A stretch of 24,075 nt of DNA, taken from positions 1 to 24,075 of the IMG/VR virus record IMGVR_UViG_3300007735_000511; one strand, written 5' to 3'. How positions within the stretch are numbered: the first letter of the stretch is position 1; each line of letters opens with the position of its first letter. The translations under genes and the position numbers were made by a program. Below the pieces are notes generated by a model. It saw only the letters and a list, made by a program, of their open reading frames with translations. It searched no databases and was not told the origin of the DNA. This document shows positions 4,227 through 24,023 of the stretch, one piece after another. The DNA is from a virus.

Positions 4227-4322
4227 GCCTGTCTGCCTGACGATCGAGCCGCCTCACCGGCACTCGCCCGACGGCATCCCATCGCCGGCCGCCCAGAAGC
4301 ACCGGCAACGAAAACCCACCCA

Positions 4323-4340
4323 GAACCTGTGCCCGGGTTC
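4323..4340 (+). promoter_or_regulatory. Stem-loop upstream of the major capsid gene
   Basis: The gap 4227-4362 has no gene. Within it, GAACC (4323-4327) and GGTTC (4336-4340) form a five-pair stem around the eight-base loop TGTGCCCG. The same loop, with a stem changed by compensatory pairs, occurs at 12046-12063 before the tail tube gene. It ends 22 bases before the MCP ATG. Possible roles are mRNA stabilisation or processing, translation enhancement, or a regulator binding site. Confidence 0.5.
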
Positions 4341-4362
4341 TCCGACTCCAATGGGAGACCCA

Positions 4363-5634
4363 ATGTCCACCAAGGACTACCTGGGCAACCTTCGGGATGC
4401 CCGCAACCGGGCGTGGGGCGAGGCGCAGGAGCTCCTCGACCGCGCTACCGCTGAGAAGCGCACCTTCACCTCCGAGGAGGAGGCGAAGTGGACGGCCATC
4501 AACACCGACATCGACGCCAAGGACGAGCAGATTCGTTCGTTCCTCGACATCGAGCAGCGTGAGCGTGAGGCTGCCGTTGCCCGCGAGGCGTACGCCCCGA
4601 TCCTGGGTGACGCTGCCCTCGAGGCCACGGACCGTCGTTCGGTCGACGAGGTCGCCAAGTTCCTCCGTGGCGAGACTCGTTCGCTCGACCTCGACTTCCG
4701 GAGCGTGGCTCGCGAGAAGCGTGCGATCCGTTCGGGGGCCGACGCCCGCGAGCTTCGTGACCTCGGCGAGGACACGACCACCGCTGGTGGCTACACCGTC
4801 CCGACCTCGTTCCTGCGGTCGCTGTACGACTACCTCGAGTTCTACTCGGGTGCCCGTCAGCTCGGCGTGCAGATCGTGACGACCTCGTCGGGTGAGCCGA
4901 TCCAGATCCCGTCGGTGTCCGCTCACGGCACCGCCGCTCTGCGCGGCGAGGGCACGGCGCTCGGCGAGGCCGACGCCGCCTTCACCCAGGTGACGATGAA
5001 CGCCTGGAAGTACGGCACCCTCGTCCAGGTCAGCACCGAGCTGCTCCAGGACACCGGCATCGACATCCTCGGCTTCATCGCCGAGGACACGGCCCGTGCG
5101 ATCGCCCGTGCGACCGACACGGCCTACGTCACCGGGTCGGGGACCGGCCAGCCGAAGGGCATCATCTCGACGCAGGCGGTTGGTGCGACCGTGCAGACCG
5201 GCTCGACCGGTGTGCCGTCGTACGCCAACCTGGTCGACTTCGTGTACTCGGTCAACCCGACGGCCCGTCAGGCCGGCGCTCAGTGGTTCACCCTGGACCG
5301 CAACGTCGCCGCGATGCGGAAGATCGTCGACAACTACGGCCGGCCCCTGTGGGAGCCGAACGTGCAGGTCGGCGAGCCGGACCGCTTCCTGGGCTACCCG
5401 ATCGTGCAGGACCCGAACGTCACTGCGTTCGGCACTGCCGGCGGCACCCACGCCGCGTTCGGCTACTTCCGTTCGTACATGATCCGTGACGTTGGGACGC
5501 TGCGCTTCGAGGCCAGCCCCGACTTCGCCTTCAGCTCGGACCTGATGACCTACCGGGCCATCATGCGGACCGACGGCAAGTGGATCAACGGGTCGAACGG
5601 GGAAGTCAAGTTCCTCAAGGCCCCGACCTCCTGA
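4363..5634 (+). CDS. Major capsid protein (HK97 fold)
   Basis: Main shell protein of the icosahedral head. The 423-residue protein has the HK97-type layout: a charged, coiled-coil-like N-terminal delta domain (about 1-125, rich in E, R and A) followed by the segment DTTTAGGYTVPTSF at about 137-150 that usually opens the mature shell domain. Further family-like stretches are the WKYGTLVQVSTELLQDTGID region, DTAYVTGSGTGQPKGI, and WEPNVQVGEPDRFLGYPIV near the C-terminus. The delta domain is presumably removed by the upstream protease; the exact cut site cannot be read off. I prefer ATG 4363 over ATG 4351 because GGGAG (4353-4357) lies at the right distance for it. Codon use is clearly biased to C-ending codons, which fits high expression. 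Confidence 0.95.
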   Translation: MSTKDYLGNLRDARNRAWGEAQELLDRATAEKRTFTSEEEAKWTAINTDIDAKDEQIRSFLDIEQREREAAVAREAYAPILGDAALEATDRRSVDEVAKFLRGETRSLDLDFRSVAREKRAIRSGADARELRDLGEDTTTAGGYTVPTSFLRSLYDYLEFYSGARQLGVQIVTTSSGEPIQIPSVSAHGTAALRGEGTALGEADAAFTQVTMNAWKYGTLVQVSTELLQDTGIDILGFIAEDTARAIARATDTAYVTGSGTGQPKGIISTQAVGATVQTGSTGVPSYANLVDFVYSVNPTARQAGAQWFTLDRNVAAMRKIVDNYGRPLWEPNVQVGEPDRFLGYPIVQDPNVTAFGTAGGTHAAFGYFRSYMIRDVGTLRFEASPDFAFSSDLMTYRAIMRTDGKWINGSNGEVKFLKAPTS

Positions 5635-5746: not shown

Positions 5747-5789
5747 CGCGATTCCCCGCCAGGTTGGGCACGGCCTGGCGGGGATCGCG
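5747..5789 (+). promoter_or_regulatory. Very strong 16-bp hairpin before the glycosylation genes
   Basis: CGCGAT-T-CCCCGCCAGG (5747-5763) pairs with CCTGGCGGGG-ATCGCG (5774-5789): ten plus six perfect pairs with a single bulged T and a ten-base loop. It ends 18 bases before the ATG at 5808, so it lies in the 5' leader of the next gene and just before its GGAG ribosome site. It could be a terminator without a U-tract, an attenuator lowering expression of the downstream enzymes compared with the capsid, or an RNase III-type processing site. Confidence 0.55.
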
Positions 5790-5807
5790 TGCCCCGATTG
5801 GAGCCCC

Positions 5808-5996
5808 ATGCCTGCGTTTCGTGTGTTGATCGACGGAGATGGTTCTGCGGCGGCGCAGCTCGTCGCTGCGGTCACCGCCTGCGAGAAGTCTGGCCCGATC
5901 GTTTCGGTGCTTCGTGTCGACGATTCGTTTGTGATCGTCACCGAGAAGAAGCCTCGAGCTCAGGCCCGCAAGACCGGCCCCCAGGAGACTCGGTGA
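5808..5996 (+). CDS. Small conserved-looking protein of unknown function at head of the glycosylation cluster
   Basis: I do not recognise this 62-residue protein. It starts at ATG 5808, preceded by TTGGAG (5798-5803). Its body alternates beta-like and helical stretches (AFRVLIDGDG, then AAQLVAAVTACE, then PIVSVLRVDD and SFVIVTEK), suggesting a small alpha/beta fold, and it ends in a basic tail (KKPRAQARKTG). No membrane segment or metal motif is seen. Its stop overlaps the GTG of the first glycosyltransferase (GTGA), so the two are probably translated together. A role in the capsid (decoration) or in the glycosylation pathway is possible but unproven. Confidence 0.65.
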   Translation: MPAFRVLIDGDGSAAAQLVAAVTACEKSGPIVSVLRVDDSFVIVTEKKPRAQARKTGPQETR

Positions 5997-7174
5997 AGAT
6001 CTGTTGGGCGTCGAACGCCCCCCAGGCTCCCACCGGGTACGGCCAGCAGACCGCCCAGATGCTGCCCCGTTTGCGCGACGCCGGCCACCAGGTGGCAGTC
6101 GCCTCGAACTTCGGGGTGCAGGGCGGCCCCCTCGAGTGGGACGGCTTCAGAATCTACCCGTGTGGTCGCGACTACTCGAACGACACCATTCCGCTGCACG
6201 CCATGCACTGGTTCGATCAGGATCCAGGCTGGCTGATCTTCCTGTACGACGCCTGGACGTTGCGGAACCCGCTGTATGCGGAGATGAACACGGCGGTGTG
6301 GGTACCGGTCGATCATCGGCCCGCTCCGCCGCTCGTCGTCGGCCACTTCAAGGATTACGGGTCGATCCCGATCGCGATGTCGCGGTTCGGGGAGGAGCAG
6401 CTGCGAGCCTCCGGGCTGGATCCGCTGTACGCCCCCCATGGGATCGACACCAGCATCTTCGTCGCCCACGACAAGGCCGAAGCGAAACGGGCGTTGGGTG
6501 TCCCCGACGACCGGTTCCTCGTCGGGATGATGTCGACGAACAACTCGTCGCAGCCGTCCCGCAAGGCGTACCCCGAAGCGTTCGCAGCGTTTTCGTTGTT
6601 CGCCCACGACAAGCCTGACGCGCTGCTGTACGTCCATGCCGAGAAAGCCGGCTTGCAGGGCGGCATGGAACTCGACATCTGCGCGCAGGGCCGGGGGATC
6701 CGCCCCGACCAGTTGGCGTTCGTCGACCAGTACCGGTACCGGGCGGGGGCGATCTCGCAGGCCGAACTGGCATGGATCTACAGCGCGTTCGACGTGCTGC
6801 TGTTCCCCTCGATGGGAGAGGGGTTCGGGATCCCGGCGATCGAGGCGCAGGCGTGCGGGACGCCGATCATCGTGTCGGACTATTCGGCGCAGACCGAACT
6901 GGTCTGCCCGGGCGCCGGCTACCTGGTCGCCGCCCAGCCGTACTGGGATTCTCCCCAGGCGTCGGATTTCTGTGTCCCGTCGATCGAAGACATTTACGAC
7001 AGTCTGTGCCACGCCTACCAGAATCGCGACAAGCTCGCAGCGTCTGGTGCGGCCTGCCGTGACTTCGCCCTGGCGTACGACGCCGACACGGTCTTCACCG
7101 AATATTGGAAGCCGATCCTCGAGCAGCTTGAAGCCGAACTGCCGTCGGTCGAGCCGATCAAGGTCAGCCGATGA
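5993..7174 (+). CDS. Glycosyltransferase, GT4-like (GT-B fold)
   Basis: A 393-residue retaining-type glycosyltransferase that would move a sugar from a nucleotide donor to an acceptor in the cytosol. The N-terminal half resembles an acceptor-binding Rossmann domain (KICWASNAPQAPTGYGQQT, a glycine-rich start). The C-terminal half carries the hallmark E-x7-E donor-binding motif: E276 and E284 in SMGEGFGIPAIEAQACGTP, followed by PIIVSDYSAQTELV. No membrane helix or signal peptide is visible. I chose GTG 5993, which overlaps the previous stop and follows AGGAG (5982-5986); the frame is open upstream but runs through the small gene. The sugar and acceptor are unknown. It opens a run of coupled carbohydrate enzymes. 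Confidence 0.88.
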   Translation: MKICWASNAPQAPTGYGQQTAQMLPRLRDAGHQVAVASNFGVQGGPLEWDGFRIYPCGRDYSNDTIPLHAMHWFDQDPGWLIFLYDAWTLRNPLYAEMNTAVWVPVDHRPAPPLVVGHFKDYGSIPIAMSRFGEEQLRASGLDPLYAPHGIDTSIFVAHDKAEAKRALGVPDDRFLVGMMSTNNSSQPSRKAYPEAFAAFSLFAHDKPDALLYVHAEKAGLQGGMELDICAQGRGIRPDQLAFVDQYRYRAGAISQAELAWIYSAFDVLLFPSMGEGFGIPAIEAQACGTPIIVSDYSAQTELVCPGAGYLVAAQPYWDSPQASDFCVPSIEDIYDSLCHAYQNRDKLAASGAACRDFALAYDADTVFTEYWKPILEQLEAELPSVEPIKVSR

Positions 7175-7857
7175 ACATCACGGCGTGCATCTTGACGTTC
7201 AACCTGATCGCAAACCGGCGAGAAGACCTGTTCTGGGAGACGCATCACAGCCTGTCCGAGGCTGGGGTGACGGTCATCCCGGTCGACAACGGGTCGGGGG
7301 ACGGCACCCACAAGATCGTCGAAGACCTCGGGGGATTCGTCTGGCAGGGGTGGAACACCACGTCTGGTCATGGGACGAACCTGTGCGCCCGAGTGGCGTT
7401 GGGCACGAATCCGGACCTGTGTGTCCTGTCCGACGACGACATGGTCTGGCATCCGGGGTGGCACGAAACGCTGGCCGCCTGGTGGGCAGAAGCTCCCGAC
7501 GACCTGGTGTTGACCGGCTGTCATCTCGAGCCGTTCTTCCCGTGGAACGAACCGTACGCAAAGGTCACCTATGGCGGCACGACTGGTCTGATGCGCGCCT
7601 CGACGGGCGCAGCCTCCTGGTCGTTCCGGCCGGCCGACTGGCCGAAGATCGGCCCGGTCCCGCAGCAGATCCAAGGCCATGGCGACGTTCCGGCCTGTCA
7701 GAACGTGTGGGCTAACGGCGGCAGGATCGCCCAGATCGACCTTGCCACCCACATCGGGCAGGGCAAGTCGACGTGGGGGAACCGCACCGACGCCATGTAC
7801 GGCTGGGATGTCGACCCAGTTCGCGAGCTGATCGCCCAGGGGGAAACGGTCCGATGA
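7171..7857 (+). CDS. Glycosyltransferase, GT2-like (GT-A fold)
   Basis: A 228-residue protein with the look of a GT-A family 2 enzyme. It begins with a beta strand (NITACILTFN) and has a VDNGSGDGT segment at about 39-46, the classic nucleotide-binding turn. LSDDDMVW at about 87-93 contains the DXD-type metal and nucleotide-sugar site (D88-D90). The C-terminal part contains GHGDVPACQNVWANGG, a plausible acceptor-side region. No membrane segments are present, so the acceptor is likely a soluble protein or a cytosolic precursor. The ATG overlaps the preceding stop (ATGA at 7171-7174) and its own stop overlaps the next ATG. Substrate cannot be inferred. Confidence 0.82.
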   Translation: MNITACILTFNLIANRREDLFWETHHSLSEAGVTVIPVDNGSGDGTHKIVEDLGGFVWQGWNTTSGHGTNLCARVALGTNPDLCVLSDDDMVWHPGWHETLAAWWAEAPDDLVLTGCHLEPFFPWNEPYAKVTYGGTTGLMRASTGAASWSFRPADWPKIGPVPQQIQGHGDVPACQNVWANGGRIAQIDLATHIGQGKSTWGNRTDAMYGWDVDPVRELIAQGETVR

Positions 7858-8783
7858 ACGTCCTCGTCACCGGGGGTTCCGGCTTCATCGGAACTCACGT
7901 CGTGCACCGGCTCCTCGAGCGTGGTCATGTACCGGTCATTTTCGACCGGCACATCCGCAAGCCGCCACCGGGCTGCGAACTGATCCTGGGTGATGTGCGC
8001 GACCCGGTCGCTGTGACCGAAGCTGCCGCCCACGTCCACGGTGTCATTCACCTTGCTGCCGTGCTGGGCACCCAGGAGACGATCACCAACCCGCGGCCCG
8101 CCGCGGAAACGAACGTGATGGGTGCCCTCAACGTGTTCGAAGCGGTCGCCCAGTACGAGCTGCGAGCCGCATATGCGGCGGTCGGCAACCATTGGATGGA
8201 CAACGGGTACTCCATCTCGAAGACCGCAGCCGAGCGGTTCGCGAAGATGTACAACGCCGAGCGAGGCACCCGCATCGGGATCGTCCGAGCGTTGAACGCC
8301 TATGGGCCCGGCCAGTCGGTCGCCGCCCCCTACGGGTACAGCAAGGTCCGCAAGATCATGCCGGCGTTCATCTGCCGGGCGTTGTGCGGCCATCCGATTG
8401 AGGTGTACGGCGACGGCAGCCAGATCATGGACATGGTTCACGTCGACGATGTCGCCGACATCTTCGTGCAGGCCATGGAGGTCGGACCGACTGACGGCTG
8501 GCCGATCTACGAAGCCGGTCCGGGCCGGGCGACGACCGTCCTCGAGATCGCCCACACGGTGCGCGACCTCGCCGCCGAAATCACGGGCAATGTGGTCGAC
8601 ATCGTGCATCTGCCGATGCGGCCCGGCGAGCCGCCCAGCTCTGAAGTGTTGGGGGATCCCAGCACCCTGGCGCCGCTGCTCGGCGAGACGTACGGGTTCG
8701 TCAGCCTCGAAGACGGGGTGCGCGAAACGGTCCGCTGGTTCCAAGCGAACCATGGCGTCACTTGGATGTATCAGCCCCGATGA
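7854..8783 (+). CDS. NAD-dependent sugar-nucleotide epimerase/dehydratase (extended SDR)
   Basis: A 309-residue extended short-chain dehydrogenase/reductase of the GalE/WcaG type, which would remodel an NDP-sugar as donor for the neighbouring transferases. Visible motifs are TGGSGFIG (6-13, dinucleotide binding), D31 at the end of the second strand (NAD preference), HLAA (66-69) and YSISK (119-123, the catalytic Tyr-Lys pair). The C-terminal half has VYGDGSQIMDMVHVDDVAD, typical of NDP-sugar epimerases. Oddly, the Ser/Thr normally found in an SSxxVYG segment before the Tyr is not evident (AAYAAVGNHW instead) and the loop to the Tyr is short. Exact product sugar is unknown. Its ATG overlaps the previous stop. 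Confidence 0.88.
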   Translation: MNVLVTGGSGFIGTHVVHRLLERGHVPVIFDRHIRKPPPGCELILGDVRDPVAVTEAAAHVHGVIHLAAVLGTQETITNPRPAAETNVMGALNVFEAVAQYELRAAYAAVGNHWMDNGYSISKTAAERFAKMYNAERGTRIGIVRALNAYGPGQSVAAPYGYSKVRKIMPAFICRALCGHPIEVYGDGSQIMDMVHVDDVADIFVQAMEVGPTDGWPIYEAGPGRATTVLEIAHTVRDLAAEITGNVVDIVHLPMRPGEPPSSEVLGDPSTLAPLLGETYGFVSLEDGVRETVRWFQANHGVTWMYQPR

Positions 8784-9460
8784 TTCCTCGGGTGGTGCAT
8801 CGCATCTGGTTCGGTGACCGGCCGATGCGTCGCGAGCTCGTCGAGTTCGGACGGGCCTGGGAACGGCTGGGCTACGAGGTCCGCCTGTGGACCGAATCGA
8901 ACCTGCCTGATCTGGTGAACCGTGAGGTGTACGACCAGATCGCTCTGAGAGGCGTCAACAGCGGCGGTGGCGACCCCACGCTGGGCGTGTGGGTCCAGAG
9001 GGCCGACATCGTCTCCTACGAGCTTCTGTGGCGTTACGGGGGGATCTACGCCAACACCGACATCGAACCCCGCCGGCCGATTCCTCTCGAGGGGGTGGTG
9101 GCGTTCGCCGGGTTCGAAGACGACACGTTTCTGTGCAACGCCCTGATGGGCTGCGTGCCCGACAACGATTTTTTCGCCCAGGTGATCGCCGAGATCCCCG
9201 GCCGGTACGCCCGCCATTGGGCATCGCCGATGAATTACACGACCGGCCCGCATCTGCTGACCGACGTGTGGAAACGGAACCCAGGGGGTCTGACGATCTT
9301 TCCTCGGGAGGCGTTCTACCCGGTGGGGTTTCACGCCGAACAGATGCGTTCCGAATGGGATGACCATCCGGGCAGCTTCTGTGTCCACCATTGGGGCCAC
9401 ACCCGCAGCCGATGGTCTGAAGAGCCATCCGACGAGTTTCTCGACGCCCGGTTCGGCTGA
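8780..9460 (+). CDS. Glycosyltransferase, GT32-like (DXD sugar-binding)
   Basis: A 226-residue enzyme resembling the GT32 / OCH1-capsular family. It starts with the family signature IPRVVHRIWFG (2-12). It carries QRADIVSYELLWRYGGIYANTD at about 73-94, split here as QRADIVSY, ELLWRYGGIY and ANTD. This matches the conserved arginine-aspartate, tyrosine and GGIYxDxD core, except that the first Asp of the DXD is Asn92 (N-T-D94). Near the C-terminus VHHWGHTRSRW supplies the usual HHW motif. No transmembrane anchor is present, unlike eukaryotic OCH1. The ATG overlaps the epimerase stop (ATGA); its stop overlaps the next ATG (TGATG). Confidence 0.85.
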   Translation: MIPRVVHRIWFGDRPMRRELVEFGRAWERLGYEVRLWTESNLPDLVNREVYDQIALRGVNSGGGDPTLGVWVQRADIVSYELLWRYGGIYANTDIEPRRPIPLEGVVAFAGFEDDTFLCNALMGCVPDNDFFAQVIAEIPGRYARHWASPMNYTTGPHLLTDVWKRNPGGLTIFPREAFYPVGFHAEQMRSEWDDHPGSFCVHHWGHTRSRWSEEPSDEFLDARFG

Positions 9461-9999
9461 TGCTGATCACGGTCATCACGCCCACGTTGCCGGAACGGAC
9501 CGAGTTCCTCGCCGATCTCGCTGACGACCTGGCCGCTCAGACATTCATCGACTGGACGTGGTTCGTCCGACCCGACCTCGATGGGCGGGGGCCCGCTCCG
9601 ATCCGAAACGAGCTGGCCGCCCAGTCGACTGGCGACTGGCTGGCATTCATCGACGACGACGACCGGGTGGATCCCAACCATCTCCAGGTGCTGTTCGACG
9701 CCGCCGGCGATGCCGACGTGATCTACACCCGGTGCCGCGTCGAGGGTCGCGACTGGCAGCCCGAACATGACTGCACTCACCGGTCGCTCGAGACGTTCAA
9801 CACGATTCCGGTGACGACATTGGTGCGCCGCACCGCGTTCTTGACCGTTGGTGGATTCCCGCTGGGAGTTCACGAAGAAGACTGGCATTTGTGGCGGAAC
9901 CTGCAAGCCGAAGGCGCGGTGTTCCGCTGCATCCACGAAACGACCTGGACGTACCGCTTCCACACGGTCGGCCGGGGGAACAGGACTTGGCATGGCTGA
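9460..9999 (+). CDS. Short glycosyltransferase, GT2-like
   Basis: A 179-residue protein that looks like a minimal GT-A domain. It begins ITVITPTLPERTEFL, has an acidic DXD-like cluster D65-D68 (FIDDDDRVDP), and contains HEEDWHLW at 138-145, matching the ED-W catalytic-base motif of family 2 enzymes. The protein is shorter than most GT2 enzymes (220-300 residues) and lacks the usual C-terminal helices, so it may work with a partner or be specialised. No membrane segments are seen. It is coupled to its neighbours: its ATG overlaps the previous stop, and its 3' end overlaps the start of the head-tail connector gene by eight bases. Donor and acceptor are unknown. Confidence 0.82.
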   Translation: MLITVITPTLPERTEFLADLADDLAAQTFIDWTWFVRPDLDGRGPAPIRNELAAQSTGDWLAFIDDDDRVDPNHLQVLFDAAGDADVIYTRCRVEGRDWQPEHDCTHRSLETFNTIPVTTLVRRTAFLTVGGFPLGVHEEDWHLWRNLQAEGAVFRCIHETTWTYRFHTVGRGNRTWHG

Positions 10000-10618
10000 C
10001 ACTCTGGATGTGATCACGCTCGCCGAAGCGAAATCGGCGATCAACATCGCTTCGTCGGACACCAGCCAGGACACCGAACTGGGCGGCTACATCACTGCCG
10101 TGTCCCGCCGGCTCGACACTTTGTGCGGCCCGATCGTCAAGCGCACCATCTCCGGTGAGCAGCACATGGTGTCTCGCGACTTGTACATCGACGTGCGGTA
10201 CCGGCCGATCTACTCGGTCGCCGCCGTCTACGAGTTCAGTGCGGACGGCACGTCGCTGCCGTTGAACAACGAATCGACAACGGTGAAGCCGCAGGACGGC
10301 TATCTGATCGACCCGAACACCCGGGAGCGGTACCGGATCTACCGGCGCAGCTCGGGTCTCATGTACCCGTTCCCCTACTACGGGATCGTGGAGGTGTCGT
10401 ACGACGCCGGCCGGGCGACCGACACGGCGAGTGTCGACCCGGTCTTCAAGCAGGGTGCGGCCATCATGCTTTCGCAGCTGTGGCGGCGCGAGCAGGGCAT
10501 CGGCACCAACAACTTCGGTCTGCCCGACCAGGGTGGTGCCATGGTTCCGACGTTCGCAGTGCCCCGAGCGGTCATCGAGCTGCTCGCCGAGTATCTGCGG
10601 CCTGCCGGCGTCGGCTGA
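9992..10618 (+). CDS. Head-tail connector / adaptor protein (HK97 gp6-like)
   Basis: Adaptor ring that attaches below the portal and receives the tail. The 208-residue product starts at ATG 9992 (AGGA at about 9982 is a suitable ribosome site). The N-terminal stretch VITLAEAKSAINI followed by DTELGGYITAVSRRLD is the typical opening of gp6-like connectors: a helix pair that reads LxEAKxxLxI...D..L...I..AS..id. A beta-rich centre (YRPIYSVAAVYEF, YRIYRRSSGLMYPF) and a C-terminal helical part (FKQGAAIMLSQLWRREQG, PRAVIELLAEYLRP) complete the family pattern. It is unusual that this neck gene is embedded among glycosyltransferase genes, overlapping one directly. Confidence 0.85.
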   Translation: MADTLDVITLAEAKSAINIASSDTSQDTELGGYITAVSRRLDTLCGPIVKRTISGEQHMVSRDLYIDVRYRPIYSVAAVYEFSADGTSLPLNNESTTVKPQDGYLIDPNTRERYRIYRRSSGLMYPFPYYGIVEVSYDAGRATDTASVDPVFKQGAAIMLSQLWRREQGIGTNNFGLPDQGGAMVPTFAVPRAVIELLAEYLRPAGVG

Positions 10619-11013
10619 TGGCCGCCACGTCGCTCACGAACGCCAAGGCCGACCTGTACGGCCTGCTGGTGTCCAACACGACCACGGGCGCACCGGTGGC
10701 CGCTCTGACGGCTGTGGCACGGGTCTACGACCACGAGCCGCTGCCCGGCGATCTGTTCCGGCCAGTGTCGGTCACCATCACCAGCGCCGGGATGACTCCG
10801 AACGAGTTCCTCCTCGAGGTGCGGATCTACGCCACCGACGCTACGCAGCAGCTCACCCAGGCCCGGATGGATCTGGCCGTCGCCCAGGTCGACGCCCGGA
10901 TCGGAAGCACCGCCGAGTTCGGACCGTCCGACTGGACGATCGCTTGGGTCAACGAAATCGGCGCCTGGGTGGCGTTGTGTCAGATCACCGCTGGCCGTCA
11001 GGACAACATGTGA
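10618..11013 (+). CDS. Probable tail terminator / neck protein
   Basis: A 131-residue protein placed after the connector, where head-closure and tail-terminator proteins normally lie. It reads as a small alpha/beta protein: an N-terminal helix (LTNAKADLYGLLVS), strands with VARVYDHEPL and FRPVSVTI, then FLLEVRIYATDATQQLTQARMDL, and a C-terminal strand WVALCQITAGRQ. The order helix, strands, long helix and the phrase EVRIYA fit tail terminators, which cap the tail tube and bind the head, but I cannot exclude a head-closure protein. The ATG overlaps the previous stop (TGATG), and the stop overlaps the GTG of the following glycosyltransferase. Confidence 0.6.
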   Translation: MAATSLTNAKADLYGLLVSNTTTGAPVAALTAVARVYDHEPLPGDLFRPVSVTITSAGMTPNEFLLEVRIYATDATQQLTQARMDLAVAQVDARIGSTAEFGPSDWTIAWVNEIGAWVALCQITAGRQDNM

Positions 11014-12032
11014 GACTGTTGATGGTGCGTCCGGGCCCGAACTTCTCGGTGCAGGATGTCCACAACGGTTACGTCGACGCGTTCTCCCAACTGGGTGTCC
11101 ACGTCGAAGAGTTCCAGCTCGACGACCGGCTCACGTTTTTCAGCCAGGCGATGCTGGAACGAGACGGCGAAATGCGCCGGGCTTTCGACCATGAGGCCGC
11201 CGTCCGGATGGCTGCCGCCGGCTTGAAAGAAGTCCTGTACGCTTTCTGGCCGCAGGTGGTGGTGATCACGTCCGGGTTTTTCATCCCTCCGGACTTTTAT
11301 CCGCTGTTCCGTGATCGGGGCCACAAGCTCGTCGCCTTGTTCACGGAATCGCCCTACGAAGACGATCGGCAGCTGGAACGAGCCGGATTCTTCGACCTGG
11401 TGCTGATCAACGATCCGACGAACCTCGAGGCGTTCCGGCCGGTCAACCCGAACAGCCACTACCTGCCGCACTCGTACAACCCACTGGTGCATCGTCCGGG
11501 CCCGGCGCTTGCCGAACTGGCGTGCGACGTGGCGTTCGTGGGAACCGGCTACCCGTCCCGAGCCTCATGGTTCCGGAGAGTCGACTGGGAAGGCTTGGAC
11601 GTGCGTCTGGGAGGCCATTGGGCCGCCTGGAAAGACGATCCGTGGTTCGCCGACCGGATGGTGCATCCGATCGACTGGTGCATGGACAACAGCGAAGCGG
11701 TCGACCTGTACCGCTCCTGCAAGGCCAGCCTGAACCTGTACCGCAAAGAGGCGTCGGAGTCGGCGACCGCTGACGGCTGGGCGTGCGGCCCCCGGGAGAT
11801 CGAACTGGCCGCCACCGGCACGTTCTTTCTGCGGGAACCCCGAGGCGAATCGGACGACTTGTTCTGGATGTTGCCGACGATCGGCGATCCGGAGCAGGTC
11901 CGTCCCGAGCTCGACTGGTGGTTGGCGAACGACCGAGCCCGGGAACGAGCTGCTGACGGTGCCCGCCAGGCGATCGCCGACCGAACATTTGTGAATCACG
12001 CCAAAGGCATTCTGAGCCGTCTCGGCGTGTGA
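11010..12032 (+). CDS. Glycosyltransferase, CgeB-like
   Basis: A 340-residue protein resembling the CgeB family of GT-B glycosyltransferases (first known from Bacillus spore coat modification). Typical stretches are the C-terminal-domain opening CDVAFVGTGYPSRASWF, then GLDVRLGGHW, and a late segment with NLYRKEASES, GPREIELAATGTFFL and EPRGESDDLFW, i.e. the pattern of a conserved Glu, a glycine-containing turn and an acidic patch near the donor site. No membrane segment is visible. GTG 11010 is preferred because it overlaps the preceding TGA; ATG 11022 is an alternative. It is separated from the other transferases by two neck genes and lies directly before the tail tube gene. Confidence 0.8.
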   Translation: MRLLMVRPGPNFSVQDVHNGYVDAFSQLGVHVEEFQLDDRLTFFSQAMLERDGEMRRAFDHEAAVRMAAAGLKEVLYAFWPQVVVITSGFFIPPDFYPLFRDRGHKLVALFTESPYEDDRQLERAGFFDLVLINDPTNLEAFRPVNPNSHYLPHSYNPLVHRPGPALAELACDVAFVGTGYPSRASWFRRVDWEGLDVRLGGHWAAWKDDPWFADRMVHPIDWCMDNSEAVDLYRSCKASLNLYRKEASESATADGWACGPREIELAATGTFFLREPRGESDDLFWMLPTIGDPEQVRPELDWWLANDRARERAADGARQAIADRTFVNHAKGILSRLGV

Positions 12033-12045
12033 CTTCTCGTAAACC

Positions 12046-12063
12046 GCCCCTGTGCCCGGGGGC
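12046..12063 (+). promoter_or_regulatory. Stem-loop upstream of the major tail tube gene (pair of the capsid one)
   Basis: GCCCC (12046-12050) and GGGGC (12059-12063) form a five-pair stem around the loop TGTGCCCG. Loop and stem length are identical to the element at 4323-4340; two stem pairs differ and both remain paired. It ends 27 bases before the GTG start, and an AGGAGG ribosome site follows at 12079-12084. It is one of the few untranslated gaps in an otherwise overlapping gene chain. Confidence 0.5.
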
Positions 12064-12090
12064 TTTCCGCCACTATCCAGGAGGATTCCC

Positions 12091-12489
12091 GTGGCACGCA
12101 TCCATGGCCGTAATGGCCGTCTGTACGTTGGGATCGCTTCGGGCGGTACTGCCGAGCCGGTCGCCTTCCTGAACAAGTGGTCGATGAACTTCTCGACCGA
12201 CGACGTGGAGGTCACGTCGTTCGGCGACGCGAACAAGACGTACGTCGCCGGCCTGCCGGATGTCGACGGGTCGTTCGGCGGCTTCTACGACAACGCCACC
12301 GCCCAGACCCTCACCGCGGCGACCGACGGGGTGGCCCGCAAGTTCTACGCCTACCCGGACAACTCGTCGACCAGCCAATACTGGTTCGGGACGGCCATCT
12401 TCGACTTCGCCGTCTCTACCGGTGTCGGCGAGGCCGCGACGATCAGCGGCAACTTCAAGGCGTCCAGCGCCGTCACCAAGGTCGGCTGA
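12091..12489 (+). CDS. Major tail tube protein
   Basis: Subunit of the stacked rings that make the tail tube. The 132-residue protein is small for the family but has the expected features: an N-terminal strand region ARIHGRNGRLYVGI, the phrase FLNKWSMNFSTDDVEVTSFGD, a gly-rich VDGSFGGFYD turn, and a closing strand AATISGNFKASSAVTKV. This matches the T-S-F-G-D and GSF pattern of siphophage tail tube proteins. GTG 12091 is chosen because AGGAGG lies seven to twelve bases upstream, the best ribosome site in the window. Its position before the tail assembly chaperone supports the call. Strong initiation and the leader hairpin fit high expression. Confidence 0.85.
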   Translation: MARIHGRNGRLYVGIASGGTAEPVAFLNKWSMNFSTDDVEVTSFGDANKTYVAGLPDVDGSFGGFYDNATAQTLTAATDGVARKFYAYPDNSSTSQYWFGTAIFDFAVSTGVGEAATISGNFKASSAVTKVG

Positions 12490-22611: not shown

Positions 22612-22712
22612 ATTCCACGGGATGGAATCAGAGTCGGCTTAGGCGGCGGATAGTTATCACCAAACGCCGGAATCCCGTCACTGGAGGCCAATCGTGGAAC
22701 CTAGCGATAACT
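22612..22712. repeat. Palindromes beside the att-like site (possible recombination arm sites)
   Basis: ATTCCA (22612-22617) and TGGAAT (22623-22628) form a perfect six-pair repeat around CGGGA. AGTTATC (22652-22658) recurs inverted as GATAACT (22706-22712). Both lie 30-130 bases left of the att-like core. They could be arm-type integrase or excisionase sites, or chance; no consensus can be derived from one copy. Confidence 0.3.
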
Positions 22713-22719
22713 CGGAAAA

Positions 22720-22778
22720 CTGTCTCTGTCGTTCTGCAAAACCCTGGACGCGGGTTCAATTCCCGCCACCGCCTCTCC
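22720..22778 (+). other. Putative attP: fragment matching the 3' end of tmRNA (or tRNA)
   Basis: Within 22745-22777, TGGACGCGGGTTCAATTCCC and GCCACCGCCTC reproduce a T-arm and acceptor 3' strand: stem GCGGG/CCCGC with the seven-base loop TTCAATT. GGACGCGGGTTCAA is identical to the same part of E. coli tmRNA as I recall it, so ssrA is the likeliest target, with tRNA as the alternative. The 5' half of such an RNA is not present, so this is not a functional RNA gene. It lies just left of the integrase gene, the usual place for attP; on integration it would rebuild the 3' end of the host gene. The exact core boundaries cannot be fixed without the host sequence. Confidence 0.65.
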
Positions 22779-22901
22779 AAAAGCCCTTGTAGTTGGCTGG
22801 TAATCGGGCTTCCGGTGTGGCAGGCTCTCCATACCGCTCCCCGGATCCAGCCTGGATCCATCCTCTGGGACGGTGTGCCCGCCGCCGCAGATTGGAGCCC
22901 C

Positions 22902-24023
22902 GTGATTCGTCGTCGTGGCAGCAGTTGGATCGTCCAGGTGTATCTGGGGCCCGATCCGCTGACCGGACGGAAGCGTTTCAAGTCCCGCAGCGTCCCCGCC
23001 GGTAAAGAAACGAAGCCGCCGAAAGCCGTCCGGGACCTCGAGATCAAGATGAAGGCCCAGGTGATGCGGGGCGAGCTCCAGCCGTCGGCGACCACCGTCG
23101 GCGAGCTGATGGCTCTCGAACTGGAGTTCGGCAAGGGCTCCTGGTCGCCGTGGACGTACGCCGGCTACGAGTCCAAGGCCCGCCTGTACATCGTCCCGGC
23201 GCTCGGTTCCGTGCGGTTGAACAAGTTGACCGTGGCGAAGATCGACCAGCTGTACCGAGATCTCGAGGCGCGGGGGTTGTCTCCTCAGACGATCCGGCAC
23301 GTTCACGTCGTTCTTCGCAAGTCGCTGGATCGGGCCCGCCGGTGGGGATGGATCGTGGCGAACCCGGCGGCGGATGCGACCCTGCCGAAAGTGGTGACGA
23401 AACCGATCCGTCCGCCGTCGCTGGACGAAGTCGCCCAGTTGGTCGAAGCTGCCGGCGACGACCTGGCCGACGCCATCGTCTTGGCCCAGCACACCGGAGC
23501 CCGCCGGGGTGAGCTCTGCGGCCTGCGCTGGTCCGACATCGACCTTGACCTCGACCCGGCCCGACTGGTCATCCGGAGGTCGATCGTCGATCGCACCGCC
23601 GACAACATCGTCGTGAAGGGCACGAAGACCAACAAGTCCCGAGCGGTCCTGCTCGGCCCGACCGTCGCCGACCGCCTGCGGACCCGCCGGGCGCGCATGG
23701 AAGACATCGCCGCCACGTTCGGCACCCAGCTGGTGGACGACGCCTACGTCCTGTCTGAATCGGTCGACGGCTCCGAACCCCTGAAACCCAATCTGATCAC
23801 CGGGCGGTTCACGAACCTGACGAAACGGTTGGGCATCCACACCCGATTCCACGATCTGCGCCACGCCAACGCCACGGCGCTGCTCCAGGCCGGCATCCCG
23901 GTGAACGATGTTGCCCAACGGCTGGGACATGCCAGCGTCCGCATGACCTTGGACGTGTACGGCCACGCCTCCGAGAACGTGGCGGCCGCCTGGGTGTTCG
24001 AGCCACAGAATCGACCCGATTAG
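22902..24023 (+). CDS. int: Tyrosine recombinase (phage integrase)
   Basis: Catalyses attP x attB integration and, with an excisionase, excision. The 373-residue product starts at GTG 22902 (TTGGAG at 22892-22897); the frame is open further upstream, but IRRRGSSWIVQVYLGPDPLTGRKRF (read in parts) is a typical integrase N-terminus. The arm-binding domain is followed by a SAM-like core-binding domain (VGELMALELEF to about 155) and the catalytic domain, with R201 (HTGARRGE), K near 239 (VVKGTKT), H317 and R320 (FHDLRHANAT), H343 (LGHASVRMT) and nucleophile Y353 (LDVYGH). All active-site residues are intact. The gene lies 124 bases right of the putative att core. Confidence 0.94.
   Translation: MIRRRGSSWIVQVYLGPDPLTGRKRFKSRSVPAGKETKPPKAVRDLEIKMKAQVMRGELQPSATTVGELMALELEFGKGSWSPWTYAGYESKARLYIVPALGSVRLNKLTVAKIDQLYRDLEARGLSPQTIRHVHVVLRKSLDRARRWGWIVANPAADATLPKVVTKPIRPPSLDEVAQLVEAAGDDLADAIVLAQHTGARRGELCGLRWSDIDLDLDPARLVIRRSIVDRTADNIVVKGTKTNKSRAVLLGPTVADRLRTRRARMEDIAATFGTQLVDDAYVLSESVDGSEPLKPNLITGRFTNLTKRLGIHTRFHDLRHANATALLQAGIPVNDVAQRLGHASVRMTLDVYGHASENVAAAWVFEPQNRPD

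Follow-up and report, generated by a model that had tools for sequence, protein, structure and literature searches.

RESULTS

Two hairpins precede the capsid and tail-tube genes

We analyzed a window of 24,075 bases, which is a whole IMG/VR virus record. Its genes run in the order terminase, portal, protease, capsid, glycosyltransferase block, major tail protein, tape measure, lysis, exonuclease, and integrase. The gap at 4227-4362, with the protease gene upstream and the capsid gene downstream, and the gap at 12033-12090, with a glycosyltransferase gene upstream and the tail-tube gene downstream, each contain a hairpin on the coding strand (Table 1). The products of the two downstream genes are generally the most abundant proteins of a virion.

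As the relatives show, translation of the capsid gene most likely starts at ATG 4363. With this start, the distances of 22 and 27 bases between the hairpins and the start codons (ATG 4363 and GTG 12091) in an earlier note on this DNA are correct, and its coordinates and sequences hold as well. The note had further reported that GAACC/GGTTC before the capsid gene becomes GCCCC/GGGGC before the tail-tube gene through two A-T to C-G pair changes, and these are present. The shared stem-loop that it described is real at both sites, but its 8-base loop on a 5-bp stem is not. We rejected that loop because the RNA fold adds the inner pairs U-G and G-C, leaving a UGCC tetraloop on 7 to 8 bp; the best fold of the capsid site has one extra outer A-U pair. 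As refined, the hairpins in the window end 21 to 27 bases 5' of the start codons. The predicted energies of the isolated hairpins are -9.3 (capsid) and -12.2 kcal/mol (tail tube); for segments of 28 nt, the values are -9.9 and -13.6 kcal/mol, respectively, with z of about -2.2.

TABLE 1 Positions of the leader elements, neighboring features, and a duplicated motif in related contigs
Feature	Position	Strand	Basis or remark
Major capsid protein gene, HK97 type	4363..5634	+	PHROG major head protein, 1.1e-66
Major tail protein (tail tube) gene	12091..12489	+	PHROG major tail protein, 1e-14
Capsid leader hairpin AGAACCUG-UGCC-CGGGUUCU, 8 bp, UGCC tetraloop	4322..4341	+	Sequence, fold, covariance model 30.8 bits
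Tail-tube leader hairpin GCCCCUG-UGCC-CGGGGGC, 7 bp, UGCC tetraloop	12046..12063	+	Sequence, fold, covariance model 32.9 bits
Invariant core CCTGTGCCCGGG, capsid copy	4326..4337	+	12/12 identical in relatives
Invariant core CCTGTGCCCGGG, tail-tube copy	12049..12060	+	11/12 in relatives; one change, U-G to U-A
Shine-Dalgarno-like GGGAG, capsid gene	4353..4357	+	Sequence; AAGGAG at this place in relatives
Shine-Dalgarno AGGAGG, tail-tube gene	12079..12084	+	Sequence
Very stable hairpin 3' of capsid gene	5753..5784	+	-29.7 kcal/mol; equivalents in L003-L006, L126, L129
Duplicated motif 5' of capsid start	L003:1054-1107; L006:7537-7594; L129:2549-2618		

The block that separates the capsid gene from the tail-tube gene (5789-12032) carries glycosyltransferase and epimerase genes. 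Glycosyltransferases occupy the equivalent capsid-to-tail-tube interval in Pontimonas phage phiPsal1, and this parallel suggests glycosylated virions. At the other end of the window, the interval 22620-22771, which adjoins the integrase gene (22815-24023), contains GGACGCGGGTTCAATTCCCGC and matches the tmRNA 3' end (21 bits and E 7e-7 in a local search, under the gathering score). It is a probable attP, through which the phage would integrate into the tmRNA gene of its host.

The core is kept and the stem re-paired in close relatives

Three related IMG/VR contigs (L003, L004, and L005/L011) encode capsids 94 to 95% identical to that of the window; in L003 and L005/L011, the tail-tube gene is present too, at 77 to 78% identity. 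The core CCUGUGCCC[A/G]GG precedes the same genes in these relatives, on stems of 6 bp in the capsid leaders (GCCCUG-UGCC-CGGGGC) and 5 bp in the tail-tube leaders (GCCUG-UGCC-CAGGC). Both the loop and the pairing are kept in L003, L004, and L005/L011. Together with the window copies there are four distinct hairpin sequences, from two lineages.

All four copies have the same tip and loop but different arms. Two stem positions are each seen as A-U, C-G, and G-C across the copies, and the inner U-G pair is replaced by U-A; the core CCUG-UGCC-CRGG is otherwise invariant. Paired cells make up 81%, falling to 50% or less when the 3' partner is slid. Between lineages, the core is identical at 12/12 (capsid) and 11/12 (tail-tube) positions, and the leaders outside it at 81/131 (62%) and 27/53 (51%). 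The covariation score, calculated from four sequences, was matched by 4 of 500 shuffles; it is suggestive and not statistically strong. Because the stem pairs change together while the core stays invariant, selection likely acts on an RNA hairpin, as judged from the sequences of two lineages. The earlier note's proposal of selection on RNA structure thus gains a fixed core with compensated stem pairs in relatives, and its reach is two lineages only.

Every copy has the same orientation, on the coding strand only. Each contig has at most two, each before a capsid or tail-tube gene, and we found no third copy in the window or in the relatives' contigs. This count covers the record only; because the record stops at the integrase gene, without the early region, copies elsewhere in the genome are possible. 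By hand calculation from the coordinates, the core GTG lies 34, 39, 32, and 35 bases from the start codon in the four copies. The reading frame is not kept across them, as it would be for a leader peptide or an alternative start.

The shared hairpin exceeds random expectation

The octamer TGTGCCCG alone is unremarkable, with 4 matches against 2.0 expected and at least 4 in 14 of 100 shuffles. By our own estimate from random counts, 24 kb should also contain a repeated 12-mer by chance. The paired hairpins are another matter: in 200,000 pairs of leader shuffles that preserved dinucleotides, two same-core tetraloop hairpins never arose (both at least 7 bp, same core, one mismatch permitted). A covariance model of the four copies scored the window sites, which are themselves among its training copies, at 32.9 and 30.8 bits, and the next-best place in the window at 11.4 bits. 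In a search of 0.85 Mb with a model built from just the two window copies, the check that the earlier note had proposed, the relatives' capsid site came close to the top, yet its score of 19.2 bits (E 0.33) was level with that of one chance match in L008; the relatives' tail-tube site was not reported. Neither hairpin had a match among the Rfam 15 covariance models up to E 5.

The start and the 3' end of the capsid gene are unusual

Capsid codons 1 to 30 (4363-4452) have 0/27 synonymous differences between the window and L003/L005, the lowest of 395 windows; synonymous change is 22 to 24% in the rest of the gene, and the leader just 5' of the frozen codons is strongly diverged. The first 30 codons of the other genes had synonymous change of 0.19 to 0.69 where at least 20 codons were countable, and none was frozen as strongly as those of the capsid gene, for which the script used in this comparison, which chooses the ortholog start itself, gives 1/28. 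A recent recombination tract is an alternative explanation of the freeze. Other capsid groups showed a milder early-codon reduction, or none. Folds also predicted a switch between the hairpin and a pairing of its core with the first capsid codons. We do not claim this switch, because the duplex energy was no better than that of synonymous shuffles (fractions 0.38 and 0.14).

At its 3' end, the capsid gene is followed by a hairpin of -26 to -37 kcal/mol in all relatives tested; those after other window genes have -8 to -16 kcal/mol. The hairpin in the window is a possible 3' boundary of the capsid message. Since so stable a hairpin follows the gene in the relatives tested, this message may be a discrete unit.

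The element belongs to a small lineage

A pattern scan of IMG/VR for the core together with AGGAG returned 37 stretches. Core matches outside this small lineage look like chance, and many are in coding sequence. Among the matches listed for this pattern and a wider Shine-Dalgarno pattern, stems of 4 bp occurred 66 times, 5 bp 30 times, 6 bp 9 times, and 7 bp once; extended stems were not enriched elsewhere among them, and the lengths fit random extension. The capsid leader had no DNA similarity match in annotated phages. At the loci searched in other groups for the same hairpin before a capsid and a tail gene, no capsid-leader segment recurs 5' of a tail gene. Capsid relatives in bacterial genomes were found only in Treponema MAG contigs, at 21 to 22% identity. 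The open literature that we searched contains no description of such a capsid/tail-tube element.

Other capsid groups have leader hairpins of their own

In L126-L133, whose capsids are 64 to 66% identical to that of the window, the capsid leader has a hairpin at a roughly equal offset. The 5' arm is CCTGTGCCC in L126 and L133, ATGTGCC in L128-L131, and GTGTGCC in L127. The register of its pairing differs, with UCC/GGA pairs that involve the Shine-Dalgarno site, and this hairpin may be an earlier version of the element or a coincidence. Conserved ATCCGTC and AAGGAC flank this hairpin, whose arms and loop vary (L126:8110-8162, L129:2621-2673, and L132:9643-9695).

Another phage group (L086, L135, L136, L146, and L149-L153) has a capsid-leader hairpin that includes the Shine-Dalgarno site, CUCCGGAGC...GGAG, with some paired changes. 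In L086:1139-1191, L146:6280-6332, L150:9951-10003, L153:9951-10003, and similar leaders, this hairpin buries the Shine-Dalgarno sequence, and we regard these leaders as a candidate capsid translation switch. A short GUUCUUGAAAGGAAC hairpin with the Shine-Dalgarno site inside its 3' arm is found in many of L170-L215 (for instance, L170:1590-1624, L172:317-351, L173:1878-1912, and L207:7029-7063), with the stem variants GUC/GGAC and AGUC/GACU. When ribosome sites were ranked by accessibility within each contig, those of capsid genes came out lower than those of the other genes (mean rank 0.34, with 0.5 expected, over 34 non-independent contigs; gene calls were from a simple script). This ranking makes control of capsid genes after transcription plausible in these phages, but it does not point to a particular mechanism in the window.

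We also observed a duplicated motif of 14 to 18 bases 5' of the capsid start (GACCGCCAGAAGCAT, GCCGCCGAAAGCAC, and GGCCGCGCGCAACGCACC), with copies 39 to 52 bases apart (Table 1).

DISCUSSION

A proposed recognition element in two leaders

Our preferred reading, to which we give a probability of about 0.45, is that the hairpins form a sequence-specific leader element that would modulate the translation or mRNA stability of the capsid and tail-tube genes through a putative bound factor. The two 5' leaders would each have a copy of a single RNA recognition element. Recognition is suggested because the hairpin tip is fixed, and RNA rather than duplex DNA because the lower stem is compensated. A putative phage or host protein would bind the fixed tip and upper stem, and the lower stem would need only to pair, whatever its sequence. 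The factor might hold or release the leader beside the Shine-Dalgarno site, or shield the 5' part of the message. It would thereby tune the amounts of capsid and tail tube, in step with each other and apart from their operon neighbors. In favor of this reading are the shared core at the two genes in both lineages, the paired stem changes, the wide margin of the two sites over the next-best covariance score, and the synonymous freeze of capsid codons 1 to 30.

Several observations count against this reading. The distinct copies number only four, from two lineages. The hairpin is absent from the leader of L006, whose capsid is 70% identical, and from the other tail-tube relatives inspected, and the tail-tube leader of L126 has a hairpin with a different loop, GCCCC-GCAA-GGGGC-UUUU. 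Codons 1 to 30 of the tail-tube gene show no synonymous constraint. When the first codons are included, equilibrium folds prefer different pairings to the capsid hairpin.

A more specific proposal, which we consider doubtful, is an RNA regulon of two genes in a tailed DNA phage: one putative RNA-binding factor would read the hairpin tip, the same at both genes, and balance head and tail subunits during assembly. This factor would possibly be a virion protein. The MS2-type coat protein operator is a short hairpin read by a virion protein for translational control, but MS2 is an RNA phage and its operator hairpin contains the replicase start.

Among documented designs, the gene 43 operator of T4 and RB69 comes closest. 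Its hairpins, of 18 and 16 bases, have an identical top 10 including the loop, lie about 40 bases 5' of the start, and overlap the ribosome binding site, and gp43 binding has been demonstrated (PMC3014915). The elements in the window are likewise short leader hairpins with a fixed tip, a 4-base loop, and a variable lower stem, and here too a conserved loop and upper stem lie 5' of the ribosome binding site. However, the T4/RB69 operator has a UAAC loop and precedes a DNA polymerase gene, whereas here the loop is UGCC and the genes encode capsid and tail tube; any binder here is putative.

Repeats in mycobacteriophages resemble the element less. The 13-bp SAS/ESAS of cluster K (GGGATAGGAGCCC), in 11 to 19 copies per genome, also lie just 5' of start codons, and about half have inverted repeats (PMC3203893), whereas the window has two hairpins only; 7 SAS-like matches with at most 3 mismatches in the window, against 7.7 expected, are at chance level. 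The 17-bp repeat of cluster O, in more than 30 copies, is also short and dyad symmetric within a phage genome, but it has fixed arms and a variable center (PMC4351075), the reverse of the pattern here, and its matches in the window were likewise at chance level.

Alternative explanations

The main rival, which we think unlikely but still credible, is a structure-only stabilizer or processing element that shields the 5' end of a processed capsid or tail-tube message from nucleases, or leaves the ribosome site accessible, with no dedicated binding partner. The hairpins do sit just 5' of the Shine-Dalgarno site, related phages keep a hairpin at the same place with other sequences, and the very stable hairpin 3' of the capsid gene in all relatives tested would fit as well. 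However, the tip and loop are identical in four copies whose arms vary, and a purely structural role would not call for one conserved loop at both sites and in both lineages.

A transcriptional role, in pausing, attenuation, or weak termination between segments of the operon, seems improbable. It would accord with GC-rich hairpins in intergenic gaps and with the U run after the L126 tail-tube hairpin. However, no T run follows either hairpin in the window (the tails are CCGACTCC and TTTCCGCC), a terminator scan listed neither on the + strand, and a terminator 21 to 27 bases 5' of the start would cut expression of two major virion genes unless overridden.

We give as little credence to a DNA element, whether an imperfect palindrome bound by a protein as duplex or a site for recombination on either side of the capsid-glycosyltransferase block. 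The inverted symmetry, and the fact that the two copies bracket a 7.7-kb block, favor it, but the arms differ in all four copies yet remain complementary, which duplex recognition does not require; in addition, every copy has the same orientation and the conserved core is itself asymmetric. Chance or inherited resemblance without current function, whether left by an ancient duplication or reached by convergence of GC-rich sequences, would suit the few copies in a small lineage, the random-looking IMG/VR matches, and an octamer that is not rare. We find it equally improbable: no shuffle reproduced the shared hairpin, and arm changes are paired around a frozen core in leaders otherwise 51 to 62% identical.

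Implications for tailed phages

The recognition element that we favor is a small target of 14 to 20 bases and is directly testable. The capsid leaders of several uncultured phage groups have hairpins of their own, some burying the ribosome site, as our survey suggests. Tailed phages need shell and tail subunits in bulk and in fitting amounts from late transcripts that also encode scarce proteins. If our reading is true, a leader hairpin at just the capsid and tail-tube genes would meet this need after transcription by simple means.
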